Shown here piece after piece: positions 715 to 46,500 of a stretch of DNA of 64,000 bases. This stretch comes from Euborellia annulipes (lineage: Eukaryota; Arthropoda; Insecta; Dermaptera; Anisolabididae): contig JAKCPI010001008.1 of the NCBI GenBank assembly GCA_023213315.1, forward strand, positions 1-64,000, in the 5' to 3' direction. The notes under the pieces are model-generated. The model searched no databases, was not told the DNA's origin, and saw only the letters and a program-made list of their open reading frames with translations. The position numbers and the translations under genes were made by a program. The stretch's first letter is position 1. Each line of letters opens with the position of its first letter.

Positions 715-3700
715 AGTTTAACATCAATAGCTGATCGATTAAACGTTGGATTTGCTTTAATCCATAAAGAACGTAAAAAAGCAAATGAAGTTGCAGCTAT
801 GGTTCTTGTCGGAGACGTTAAAGATAGAGTAGCTATTCTGGTTGATGATATGGCCGATACTTGCGGAACAATTTGTCATGCTGCTGAAAAGTAGGTGAGA
901 AATTTGTTTGTTCTCTGAACTTCTCATTAATCATTATTTGGTTTTGATTTAACAGGTTATTAGAGGCTGGTGCAACAAAAGTGTACGCTATTCTTACACA
1001 TGGTATCTTCTCGGGACCTGCAATTGCCAGAATAAATAATGCATGCTTTGAGGCTGTTGTAGTGACGAACACAATACCACAAGAACAACATATGAAAGAT
1101 TGTCCCAAAATTCAAGTGAGTATTTATTTTCGGGGTTAGTACGAGGGCTGATCAACAAAAACTCGGACTGACAAAGAATGGTCTGCAACATATGTTCAAG
1201 GACTGGCAGAGACATTGAAGTAGGATGGGACTACTTTGAAAAAAATCATGTAAAGATTGAAATGGAGTAAACATCTGTGAAAAAAATCTGGTGTGACTGG
1301 CGCACAGCACACAACTTTCTCTTACCCTTCGGTAGAGAAAGTTGTGCACTGTGCTAGTCACACCAGATTTTTTGTGTCGAGATATATTTAGTTTCCCATA
1401 GCACCTTAGTTTCAAACTTGCATTTTAAATGTTGACTGCTTCAAATAAACTATGGTTATTTTTCAAAATTTTAATCTCATATTTGGACATTTTATACACA
1501 ATATAGATTCGTAAATAAATACAAAATTTCATAAGAATTGGAGAAAAAAAATTTTAAATGCGTAAAAAAGTTCCAAAGGGGACCCCCTTTTGAATCGAAA
1601 TTAACATACAAATCCCTATAGGAAATTAACATTAGGCCTATGAGAGAAGGGAAGGCGGAGAAAGACAGAAGATAAGTTTGAGTGAGAGAGAGTGAGGGTG
1701 ATATGTTTTCTCCGAAAAAAAAAATGGGCGGGGTTTAAATAATAATTGATTTTTAATCTAATAAAAAGAAAAAGATTTTAAATTCGGTTACCATGGCAAC
1801 CATTTATTTCTCCTATCTTTCCTATGAAGCACAAGAGTAAAGTGTGCTTCAAACAATTTTGAGGAAAAAACGAGAATATACATTTGAAAGGAGCATCTAA
1901 AAAATAATTGATTTTTGAATTTTAATCAAAATCGTTAGAGCGAATTTTGAGAAAATCGAAAAAAACTGAAAAAAGTACATCAGTAAAGTACTAAGTACTT
2001 TTTGGCCGATTTTTGATTAAAAGCTTATTTTGTCGGGCCCGGGGGGTGTTTAACTTAAATATAAAATTTCAGCCTCATAGCTCAATTCCTTCATGCTTAA
2101 AATTGAACACACAGACAGACAGACAGACACGCAGACAGACAGACAGACGGGCAGACCATGTCGCGAAAACCACTTTTTTGGATTCAGGGGACCTCAAAAC
2201 GTGAAGATCCATCAAAATCTCGACATCGAATTTTTTTGACATGAAACCAATACTTTCTCCTCTATATATTATTATATATATATAGTGGTAAGAGAAAGTA
2301 AAAATTAGTCTGTCTTTGTTGATCAGCCCTCGTAGAATGCCTTTAAGAATTGTTGAGTGGGTTATTGATAAGTTTTTTTTTTTTTTAATTGCAAATTTAA
2401 TTGGATTTATTTTAATTTAAATATAGTACTTATTTTCAATAAAAAATTGTTTACTCTGATAGCTTTGGTTACGCGTTTAGGGGTCAAATGGCAATAGATT
2501 ACATACCAATAAATCCTAGAATTGTTTATTAATTTTTTAATTATAGTTTTATAAATATATTAATAAATTCCATCACTGATGTGAAATAAAACATGAAAAT
2601 CTTATCTCTTCCTTAAAATAAAATTTAAAATAGAAAAATAAATCATCTTGAAACGATGTAACACCTTGAATCTAAAGTTTATGTGTAGTTTCTTTCAGGT
2701 ATATATACTGGGACGACGAAAGGATTTTCGGAAGAATAAATCAAACCAAATTCATAGCAGAGACAATTTATTGGTTGACTAGGATGCATCCTGACGTTTC
2801 GCCAAATTAGGCCATTCATCAGAACTATATCGTCAGTACAAAATTCGACAATTTATCACAATTATTATAGTCATTTAGTTATAATAATTGTGATAAATTG
2901 TCTTGAATTCAGACTAGATGAGTTCTGAGCCTAATTATTTACGAGCGGCAGGATGCCTCGTCAACCAATAAATTGTCTCTGCTATGAATTGCTGGTTTGT
3001 TTATTCTTCCGAAAATCTATTTCTCATTTAAGAAGATTATATCAAAAATTTTAATTTTCATTTTTATTTGCATCAGCTGGAATATTAATATATATATTTA
3101 TAAAATATAATTAAAAAATTAATAAAAATTCTAGGATTTTGATTTGACCTCTATACCGACCCCCAACGCTGATACATAAACAATTTTTTATTGAAAATAA
3201 GACTCATATTTAAAAAATAATTCCATATTTGCAACTAAAAAAAAAACTTATCAATAACCCACCCAATTGTTTCTTAGCGATTCTATGGGCTGAACAAAGA
3301 AACTAATTTTTACTTTTTCTCACCCTCTACACACTATATATTAATATACTAGAGGAGAAAGAATTTCTTTCAGTTCATCGAAAATTCGATGTCGATTTAT
3401 TTGGTTTCTTCGAATCAAAAGGTCTTTCTGTCTACTGTCTGCGTGCCTTCTGTCGGTCTTGTGTTCAATTTTAAGCATGAAGAAATTGAGCTACGAGGCT
3501 GAAATTTTAAGTTACCTTAAACACCCCCCGGACCGCCAAAATAAGCTTTTGGTAAAAATCGTCAAAAAGTACTAGTACTTACTGATGTACTTTCCGTTTT
3601 TTAGATTTTCTCAAAATCGGCTCTAACGATTTTGATTAAAAATTCAAAAATCAATTATTTTTTAGATGCTCTTTCAAATGTATATTCTCGTTTTTCTCCC

Positions 3701-43516: not shown

Positions 43517-46500
43517 TCAATTAATCTTAATAGAATTATCTTCATTTATTTTTAAAACCCAAGCCCAAGATGATTCTTTTGGTGGAAGTTGAACAACAAT
43601 ATTTTGATCGCCAAGTGTATACTAAAAAAGTAAAAAAATAATATTAAAATTTATATATAAATAAACCTTTCATCCATTGAAAATTTACCTCAACTTCACC
43701 ATGTCCTAATAAATAAATTGACAACGGAGTATTAGTTTTAATACAATTTAGCGTTACAGAATCATGCCATTCGAGTAAAATGGCATAAATAGATTGATCC
43801 TCCTTTCCCTGAGTATACCTAGAAAAAAAAATCCAAATCCTTAGTAAATCTAAGAAAAATTGCAGGAAATAAAATAATTTTCCTTACCAAACGTAACTTG
43901 TAATAGTATCATTTTGACATGTTTCATAAGGTTTGGTTTTAAAAATTGCCTCTCCGTTAACATCCAGCCACTGTCCCATTTGAATGAGGCGTTCTTGAAA
44001 TATTGGGATGATTGTTCCTTCTTTAGTCGGTCCAACATTCATAAGTAAATTACCTATACAAAATTTATTTATTTTTTTATGTATATAAATAGAAAAAAAA
44101 ATGAGATATATTTGTAATAAACTTACCTCCACAGCTAACAGTTATAACTAATTCTTTAATCAATTCTTGTGTTGTCAGGAAATCTTCGTAATTTGTATTT
44201 CTTCGATATCCCCAAGATTGTTTATCAATTGTCATACAATTTTCCCATTTATGTTTTTGTAACACACCTGAAAAATGTTTTAATGTTATTTTTTAAATGC
44301 TTTATACCAGAGTTTTCCAACCTTTTGAAGTCCAAGGCACCCCAAAGCACCTTTGGGAAAAACATTACACTCTAGGGGCACCCTTCCTTTTTTCCCCTAC
44401 CATAATTCCCTTAAATAATTGAATTGAATAATATTCATGTATATCTAATATTAAAATTACCTGGATTGTACCTATCCGCACAAGTATAAAAATCTCCATG
44501 TTTACAGGAATCATCATGTCCCCATCTGTCATTTACCACGACAGTATCTTTCATAGGACTATTATTATATAAATCAGCTAAGAATTCTTTCGATGTCCAA
44601 TAATCATCACTCGCTTCCCATTCTCCATCGGACCAAATAACTTCTGGTTGGTAGGTTTCCACCTAAAATAAAAAAAAAAACTAACTAAAAAAAAAATAAT
44701 AATAATTTTAAAACATTTTTAAATACCAATTCTTTTAATTCCGGCATTGTTTTAGAGGTAACAAAATCTGAAGTGGAAAAATTGTTATTTTTATCATTTA
44801 GCCATAACGGGTTGAACCATTCATATAAGGAATGATATAAACCAAATTTTATTGATGTTCTACTTCTAATTGAATTTGCTAAGTCACCTGGAAGTGGAAA
44901 AAAAAATTAATTTGATATTATATATTAAGATCTTAGAAAAAAACATAGAGATAAATTATTGCAATTGTATAAAAAATCCACCCCTAATAAATAAATAAAA
45001 AAAATATAAAAAATCGAAATTTTGGTGAAAATGAAATCTTTTGAGGTACCCTGAGTTCAAAAAAGTGGTTCCCACAAAATATCTCAAGAATGAAATTTTA
45101 TATTTATATATATATTAGATCCTCCCGGGGCACACAATCCCGAAAACAAATCGGCTAAAGTAGAGTTTCCCAAACTTTTTCGGTTTGCGGCACCCTTAAT
45201 GAATTAAAACTTTTCCGTGGCGCCCCATGTCAAAATATAGATTTGCCCAGCGTAAAATGTAACGTAACGCAAATTTACCCTGGCCCGAGTAACATTTAAT
45301 AAAGTAATAAAATTATTATTATAATATTTTGCATAGGAAAATTTTCACGGCGCCCTGGGGGGCACAGTTTGGGAATCACTGTGTACTTTACTGATGCACT
45401 TTTTTAGTTTTCCGAATTTCTCAACAATAACAAACAATAATTATTAAATAATAAGTGAATTGAAATTTACACTTTTGATTAATGAATTGACAATATTGGA
45501 TTTTATTTGTTGTGGAATTTATTTGTTTATTGATAAAACCTAAATGTTCCTTTGCAATTGTTCCAGAATGCTCCTTCACCATCACATTCATCATCATCTT
45601 GACCTCTTAAATTCAACTCCATATCTTTAAAGGTTAGTCCTTTAAACTCCTTATTTCCTATATAAACTAATTATCCAAATAAAATTATTTCTTTTATTTA
45701 GATTTAAACTATTCACCGTGGGCTCTAGTTGAAACATTGTTGTTGACATTGAATCTTTTCAACTGACATTATGATTTGTTGGCTAAGTGTACTGTAGTGT
45801 ATCGTTTAAACATGCCGCACGTACCATATCGGCATACTCAGCATGTGTATTATAACGTGCAGTACAGTACACTACTTGGCCAACAAATCACAATGTCAGT
45901 TGAAAACATTCAATTGTTGTTACGAAATGTCAACAACGACACACAATTGTTGACAATCGTTAAATTCTCATAGCAAACGGTGTAACACCATTCTCTGGAC
46001 TCATTAAAAATTGGACATATGTTATATGAAACTTTTTATTGCAATTCGTCTATACTACCTCCCCCTAAAATATTTACCATTCCTCCTGAAACACCCTGTA
46101 TAATATTATACTGAAATTCTATAAAATCTAATTCATCTCTAGGTTATTAAAATTAAAATTACATTTTAACGTTTTATTGAAATTAAAATTAAATTGATCA
46201 CTTTATGTACATTCTGGCATTGCTGCCATCCTCAGAAGTGATTAACATTATCAACATTAGGTGGCAACAATGCCGAAATGTACATATAGTTAAAGAAAAG
46301 AATGACATCTATATATAATTCATTGTCATCATACCAATAACAAGACCGTTTCGATCTTGGTTAAGACCATCCTCAGAGCTATTACTACATACATTGCAAA
46401 ATTTCACAAATAAAACATACTCTGTGTTGTTGCTATAGGATGTTGCTGAGGATGGTCTTAACCAAGACCGAAACGTCAGCATAGAGGGCCTAATAAATAC

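Follow-up and report, generated by a model that had tools for sequence, protein, structure and literature searches.

Minimal type I hammerhead motifs in inverted pseudo-LTR pairs of Euborellia annulipes and their relation to Penelope-like retroelements

According to two reviews, minimal type I hammerhead ribozymes, which lack helix III, occur by the thousands in animal genomes, and some reside in the pseudo-long terminal repeats (pseudo-LTRs, or pLTRs) of Penelope-like retroelements (PLEs) (PMC7761336, PMC6155905). The role of the hammerhead in these elements is called unknown in the excerpt from one of them (PMC7761336). A PLE of Anolis also carries a hammerhead in its pLTR, and the portion of that report used here describes an enzyme that cleaves and extends both strands of the target, with two start sites that bound a tail (PMC11167929). 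The same portion states that mutations in the hammerhead left insertion in vitro unchanged, that RNA cleavage required the protein, and that the insertion route has been outlined with some steps awaiting validation (PMC11167929). Herein, we analyze a stretch of 64,000 nucleotides (nt) from Euborellia annulipes (contig JAKCPI010001008.1, positions 1 to 64,000; hereafter “the window”), in which short modules resembling the hammerhead core recur in inverted repeats. Judged by their sequences, these modules are hammerheads that are linked to PLEs and arranged as divergent pairs with unequal arms. We conclude, with a probability of about 0.94, that they are minimal type I hammerheads located in the pseudo-LTRs of many PLE families, and that the inverted pairs are single insertions, probably primed from two ends.

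Recurrence and covariation of the hammerhead core

When both strands of the window are searched for the exact core pattern (CTGANGA-N4-30-GAAAC), 11 occurrences are found (2796-, 4343+, 9457-, 9655+, 11676-, 13032+, 13771+, 38013-, 38176+, 46348- and 46446+, where the sign denotes the strand). This compares to 0.59 expected, and none of 100 shuffles reaches 11. A descriptor that scores the core, helices I and II, the cut triplet and, optionally, helix III identifies 10 sites of at least 30 bits in the window, compared to 0.05 per window among 40 shuffled windows, where two sites reached 30 and the best scored 32.0. The site at 54656- (30.7 bits), whose core is off consensus, may be a chance match. 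F2a (9485-) and F4b (13771+) receive the highest scores.

Sorting by eye divides the window copies into approximately eight families with differing flanks (F1 to F8), plus a truncated ninth (F9) (Table 1). Seven of the eight are head-to-head inverted pairs, the sole exception being F4, whose two copies form a direct pair 740 nt apart. Helix III is absent from F2, F4, F5 and F6, whose intact copies read GAAACGTC, and is present in F3 (11698-) and in F1, where it is made by AGGATGCATCCT (as seen by eye at 4343+ and 2822-; descriptor e=16 for 4343+). Intact cut triplets are found in F1a, F1b, F2a, F3a, F4b, F5b and F6b, and triplets are broken in the other copies, including those at 9655+ (GAAACCTC), 38040- (GAAACTTC), 46376- (GAAACGGT) and 13032+ (GAAACATC). 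The F2, F5 and F6 pairs each combine one copy whose triplet is intact with a partner whose triplet is broken, suggesting that the three pairs are old.

The assembly that contains the window (903,471,066 bases in 25,949 contigs) carries 49,758 matches to the pattern CTGANGA-N10-24-GAAACGTC, compared to 25 matches for the reversed pattern that served as a control. Matches with one helix II type (GGTC/GACC) number 6,365, against 0 for the reversed control. Among neighbors no more than 600 nt apart, 22 of 22, 11 of 11 and 20 of 23 are divergent in three partly overlapping lists, each made from the first 100 matches listed.

Base pairing outside the fixed core was assessed by swapping strands between families or regions. 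For helix I in the window, one best-kept copy from each of six families, chosen by us, gives 22 contiguous pairs in the exact register compared to a mean of 14.5 after swapping, and 6 of 720 permutations are as good. This number becomes 18 or 26 of 720 when the other F1 copy or register is used, and 6, 20 or 34 of 5,040 when F7 is added, and the totals fall to 0 to 9 when the register is slid by 1 to 3 nt. Helix I of F6b (46446+) forms only with a shift of 1 nt, due to an extra G before C3. Across 37 distinct strand pairs from the fetched genomic loci and the window, none of 2,000 swaps is as good; positions 1 to 4 are paired in 31, 32, 27 and 23 of the 37, compared to 23.8, 24.9, 22.2 and 16.1 after swapping. 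Moreover, the first pair of helix I (2.1/1.1) is C..G in 20,335 and T..A in 10,424 of the 49,758 matches. These two combinations, the ones counted, lie above the limit for independent columns because √0.409 + √0.209 = 1.10, which is greater than 1, where the figures count copies and not independent events.

For helix II, the first 100 matches listed were reduced to 82 distinct regions, some of which are close variants. If one nucleotide is placed between A9 and the helix, the first four pairs are formed in 273 of 328 cells, compared to 205.3 after swapping, and none of 5,000 swaps equals this value. The mean pair run is 3.43 with one nucleotide at this place, compared to 0.22, 1.15 and 0.49 with none, two and three, respectively, and at least three of the four pairs form at the one-nucleotide offset in 72 of the 82 regions. 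This offset is also the best in 59 regions (tied, 8; two nucleotides, 8; none, 3; three, 1; no pairs, 3). The nucleotide that follows A9 is T in 48 regions, A in 30, and C or G in two each. Many window copies share this extra nucleotide, with helix II being weak in F3a, ambiguous in F4b and offset by two or three nucleotides in F1.

A simple hairpin, in which CTGA pairs with TCAG as seen in single-strand folds, was also considered. It is not preferred, since the TCAG segment varies (TCGG and others) and helix I covaries. An alternative hairpin of this kind is observed at F6b (46436-46488 +), where TGCTGA pairs with TCAGCA across the core (z -3.8 versus shuffles).

These results bear on several claims of a preliminary description of the same DNA. 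Each place where it had reported the motif does contain it, either as such or in decayed form, at the correct coordinates, and we add the sites at 13032+, a partial copy at 4725-, a decayed copy at 46235- and a truncated copy near 12110+. Its equation of the module with the hammerhead core agrees with the excess of the core in both window and genome and with the genome-wide covariation of helices I and II, and the pairing of helix I with different bases that it had noted is borne out by the swaps in the window and in the genome. Covariation, which it had taken as the sign of a conserved RNA fold, is found genome-wide by strand swapping. Its statement that several copies lack helix III is correct for F2, F4, F5 and F6, and had to be revised for F1.

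Penelope-like elements and the anatomy of the pairs

A profile search of the assembly for GIY-YIG domains (PF01541) gives at least 118 matches at E≤0.001 among the 150 of 710 candidates that were scored. The best match lies in what we take to be a UvrC-like open reading frame (ORF) (L161; G000:C21118:23440-23664), perhaps on a bacterial contig within the animal assembly. In 14 of 19 fetched non-bacterial loci, as read off the listing, a loose core (GAAA followed by any base) follows the GIY-YIG match on its 3' side, on the same strand; nine of these 14 are one family, the count has no chance control, and L162, L165-L167 and L173 do not have the core there. At nine loci (L168-L172, L175-L177 and L179), a PLE family is observed whose core near the GIY-YIG match ends in GAAAT instead of GAAAC.

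Full-length elements make the association more direct. Locus L184 comprises two head-to-head elements, each consisting of a core, an ORF of 822 amino acids and a second core, and hmmscan finds both a reverse transcriptase domain (RVT_1, 1.2e-8) and GIY-YIG (6.3e-6) in this ORF. L186 has the same order around an ORF of 849 amino acids, and L183 has an ORF of 825 amino acids with a core 3' of it and a core on the opposite strand 5' of it. The genome profile search places GIY-YIG above the cut-off within all three ORFs, and RVT_1 is also present in them. For copy F4b of the window, the match to the repeat of L178/L181 is 77.5% over 89 nt, and that to L184 is 89.7% over 39 nt. The Penelope-like source that the preliminary description had named is upheld by ORFs of 822 to 849 amino acids beside such cores, one of them beside a core of the F4 type.

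Three pairs in the window have edges that can be read precisely. F2, F5 and F7 are flanked by direct repeats of 12, 14 (with one mismatch) and 16 nt, which few random window pairs equal (Table 1). We regard these repeats as clear target-site duplications for F2 and F7 and as a probable one for F5. The arms extend past the cut by 54 and 94 nt in F2, 62 and 97 nt in F5, and 71 and 98 nt in F7, such that a single arm of each pair bears an extra tail of approximately 30 to 40 nt, like the “tail” of PLEs. On the right, genomic copies cease to match at 9783 for F2 and 38269 for F5, each no more than a base from the prediction, and at 46569 for F6, close to the estimated edge. The left ends of the matches are less clean (9391 for F2, predicted at 9400; 37917 or 37909 for F5, predicted at 37913). 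Among 15 head-to-head pairs, F7 included, seven combine arms of 48-75 and 88-106 nt with a flanking repeat, compared to 11 of 400 with swapped flanks; the genomic pair loci were chosen for an intact core.

The arms of F7 stop within the hammerhead (GAAACGTT at 4703- and 4747+). Because this end falls in helix II, F7 was rejected as a full hammerhead. By eye, the F3 pair is apparently inserted into another pseudo-LTR (F9), and the F8 pair is apparently interrupted by F6.

These features can be accommodated by a route in which the PLE protein would cut both strands of an AT-rich target. Each target 3' end would then serve as a primer for reverse transcription within the RNA of the element, beginning at one of two starts some 50 to 100 nt past the cut, and two outward-facing pseudo-LTRs would thereby be joined head-to-head. 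We infer such two-ended, target-primed reverse transcription on uncut RNA because the pairs match the activities of the Anolis enzyme. The pairs examined also retain the hammerhead and the sequence 5' of it (F7 ends inside it), so the RNA that was copied had presumably not been cut by this hammerhead.

Copies that lack helix III would act as dimers: the palindrome ACGU within GAAACGUC would let two hammerheads pair, either in tandem or in trans. Hammerhead dimers of PLEs have reportedly been described in primary papers. An inverted pair cannot provide one transcript with two hammerheads, and thus the pairs are probably dead ends as ribozymes. As a tentative proposal, which we hold to be somewhat less likely than its opposite, head-to-head pairs might be the ordinary product of PLE insertion, with each target end priming independently on its own uncut RNA at one of two fixed sites, while the hammerhead, a subclass that usually bears one nucleotide more after A9, acts at a different step. 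If true, two-ended priming could emerge statistically from the thousands of natural junctions that this genome offers.

Competing explanations

Several observations weigh against our conclusion. When seven copies were folded alone, helices I and II were formed only in F2a and helix III in F3a, and the remaining copies favored other folds. Only two copies differ clearly from shuffles, F6b (z -3.8, in a hairpin unlike a hammerhead) and F1a (z -2.1). In the genome, 1,192 copies carry GGCC..GACC, which places a C.A mismatch at the third pair of helix II; this combination and GGTC/GACC are the two that were counted. No significant target-site duplication relative to random window pairs was found for F1, F3, F6 or F8. 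The 48-75/88-106 range was fixed after several of the values were known, and eight of the 15 pairs fall outside it. Of the three full-length ORFs, hmmscan recovers GIY-YIG only in that of L184, and RVT_1 in L186 falls below the cut-off. No PLE domain was found in the window among 20 ORFs scanned, out of 126 of at least 70 amino acids.

Also on this side is the search with Rfam hammerhead models that the preliminary description had put forward, in which no window copy was matched at E≤10. This miss does not amount to a refutation because a phage locus with the same extra nucleotide (L003; helix I of 5 base pairs, helix III of 3, and a U between A9 and helix II) is missed as well. We rejected Rfam as an arbiter after examining control loci: L027, a phage locus from IMG/VR with two canonical cores, was matched only by E-value (30.2 and 25.1 bits, under the gathering threshold of 34), and L003 was not matched at all. 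At the gathering threshold, a hammerhead was reported neither in any of 11 IMG/VR loci with canonical cores nor in any of nine loci whose pattern includes the extra nucleotide. This animal and one phage locus thus suggest that the Rfam models lose hammerheads with a nucleotide added after A9. Elsewhere, the strict motif is found in nine stretches of IMG/VR and in one among 257 gigabases of prokaryote contigs. Seven of these ten can be read as full hammerheads in which helices I and III are present, and among the other three, L005 duplicates the sequence of L003. Loci L002-L010, from IMG/VR and one Paenibacillus contig, contain hammerheads with an extra U between A9 and helix II (for example, L003:1268-1330), and could possibly represent a separate phage subclass.

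With regard to how the pairs arise, a single cDNA could fold back and prime itself, rather than two priming events taking place. This has been proposed for rotifer PLEs in the part of the report considered (PMC3846280), and the long palindromes with short central loops are what it would leave behind (F2, 75-nt arms 19 nt apart; F3, 53-nt arms 31 nt apart). In F2, F5 and F7, however, the arm without the tail is shorter by approximately 30 to 40 nt and ends at much the same position from family to family. Fold-back might yield a copy that stops short, but such regularity is not expected from it. The Anolis enzyme, moreover, is described in the excerpted text as cleaving and extending both strands (PMC11167929). 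We therefore consider self-priming unlikely, though it is the most serious competitor.

The identity of the elements is less in doubt. Animal retrozymes, non-autonomous tandem repeats of small size that carry type I hammerheads and move as circular RNA, would account for the short length of the hammerhead elements (228-571 nt), the direct F4 pair and the lack of PLE domains in the scanned ORFs. The literature depicts retrozymes, however, as carrying canonical hammerheads in direct tandem repeats (PMC7229834), whereas the listed neighbors here are mostly divergent, most window families lack helix III, and the same motif is carried by full-length PLEs, making this assignment very improbable. Least credible of all, to the point that we essentially dismiss it, is that these are DNA transposons with terminal inverted repeats, or miniature inverted-repeat transposable elements, with end hairpins that imitate the core. 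The elements do possess terminal inverted repeats and target-site duplications, but hairpin mimicry is at odds with helices that covary around a fixed core, the same motif beside ORFs for reverse transcriptase and GIY-YIG, duplications that vary in length (12, 14 and 16 nt) and a tail on a single arm.

Table 1. Hammerhead copies, paired insertions and flanking duplications in the window
Feature	Position	Strand	Remarks
F1a hammerhead	2772..2826	-	Helix III (AGGATGCATCCT); cut GUC^AACC
F1c, third copy	2918..2975	+	Decayed (CTGAGCC...)
F1b hammerhead	4337..4400	+	Helix III; helix I GGTT/AGCC; cut GUC^AGCC
F7 left target-site duplication	4609..4624 (right copy 4853-4868)		ACTATAATTAAATATC; equalled by 1/200 random pairs
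F7 head-to-head pseudo-LTR pair	4625..4852		Tail on right arm
F2 left target-site duplication	9388..9399 (right copy 9783-9794)		TAGATTTATATT; equalled by 0/150 and 1/200 random pairs
F2 head-to-head pseudo-LTR pair	9400..9782		383 nt; right-arm tail
F2a minimal hammerhead	9444..9494	-	Intact core and triplet; helix I GGCC/GGCC; 46.6 bits
F2b minimal hammerhead	9645..9700	+	Broken triplet (CTC)
F3 head-to-head pair	11507..12077		Weak target-site duplication TTTAATCACTT; equalled by 27/200 random pairs
F3a hammerhead	11652..11703	-	Helix III CGATG/CATCG; cut GUA^AACC; helix I AGGTT/AACCT; weak helix II
F3b, partner copy	11913..11967	+	GAAAG
F9 truncated copy	12105..12125	+	ACCGAAACGTC only
F4a minimal hammerhead	13024..13070	+	Triplet ATC
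F4b minimal hammerhead	13763..13812	+	Intact core and triplet; helix I 5 base pairs; L184 PLE type; 43.6 bits
F5 left target-site duplication (probable)	37899..37912 (right copy 38270-38283, 13/14)		CTAAAAAGCTTATT; equalled by 1/150 and 7/200 random pairs
F5 head-to-head element	37913..38269		Encloses third copy; left-arm tail
F5a minimal hammerhead	38000..38046	-	Triplet TTC
F5c copy	38098..38140	-	Decayed (GAACC)
F5b minimal hammerhead	38169..38216	+	Intact core and triplet
F8a copy	46195..46240	-	Decayed
F8b copy	46255..46290	+	Decayed
F6a minimal hammerhead	46340..46382	-	Shifted triplet (GGTC)
F6b minimal hammerhead	46441..46484	+	Intact core and triplet

The window holds other features as well. 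Another dispersed repeat has inverted copies around F1 (2011-2117, with an (ACAG)n run; 3460-3509; 5010-5116). Tandem arrays are present at 17714-17830 and 19591-19750 (units of the TAATCGATT type, 33 and 35 nt long) and at 59107-59555 (a unit of approximately 53 nt, TTTTGCC...CATTGGCAAAACA). The ORF at 16371-17186 (-) encodes a Tc5 transposase DNA-binding domain, and that at 30068-30346 (+) an RNase H (PF00075), preceded by an ORF at 29129-30064 without a Pfam match. A peritrophin (CBM_14) ORF is among those scanned.

Relation to known hammerheads and retroelements

Minimal PLE hammerheads were already known, and what is added here is their scale, the extra nucleotide and the geometry of the arms. 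With nearly 50,000 core matches and paired insertions whose edges can be read, the role of the hammerhead and the insertion route become testable by counting. For example, one can tally the start and end points of copies with respect to the cut, as well as the core positions that are retained.

De la Pena and Flores reportedly described, in 2001, a viroid hammerhead with an extra core nucleotide that lies between A9 and helix II. In the present case, by contrast, an extra T or A is the usual form across families. We found no report of such a nucleotide for PLE hammerheads in a literature survey that left out Cervera and de la Pena 2014 and Lunse et al. 2017.

The modules resemble the minimal PLE type I hammerheads of Cervera and de la Pena 2014 and Lunse et al. 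2017, as described in the reviews, in their core, absent helix III, pseudo-LTR location and thousands of dispersed copies (PMC6155905, PMC7761336). They appear to differ in the single nucleotide that separates A9 from helix II in most copies (59 of 82 regions), and in that there are 49,758 matches whose listed close neighbors are mostly inverted pairs.

In its rotifer counterpart, the Penelope element of Adineta vaga, the quoted text describes inverted pLTRs that are mostly head-to-head, with palindromes at the joint and a one-sided tail (PMC3846280), much as observed here. Its duplications are 8-10 base pairs in some copies (PMC3846280), compared to 12-16 nt in E. annulipes, where the copies are also far more numerous.

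Poseidon of Anolis carolinensis, as given in the excerpt, shares the hammerhead in the pLTR, a tail of 30-40 nt between start sites, an AT-rich target and the involvement of both strands (PMC11167929). With a Poseidon start at 111-118 of the ORF and a cut at +26 (PMC11167929), our own arithmetic places the start 85-92 nt past the cut, compared to 92-103 nt for the long arm here. Unlike Poseidon, the elements in E. annulipes represent many families in one genome, and the pairs in the window are short, with no PLE domain in the 20 ORFs scanned.

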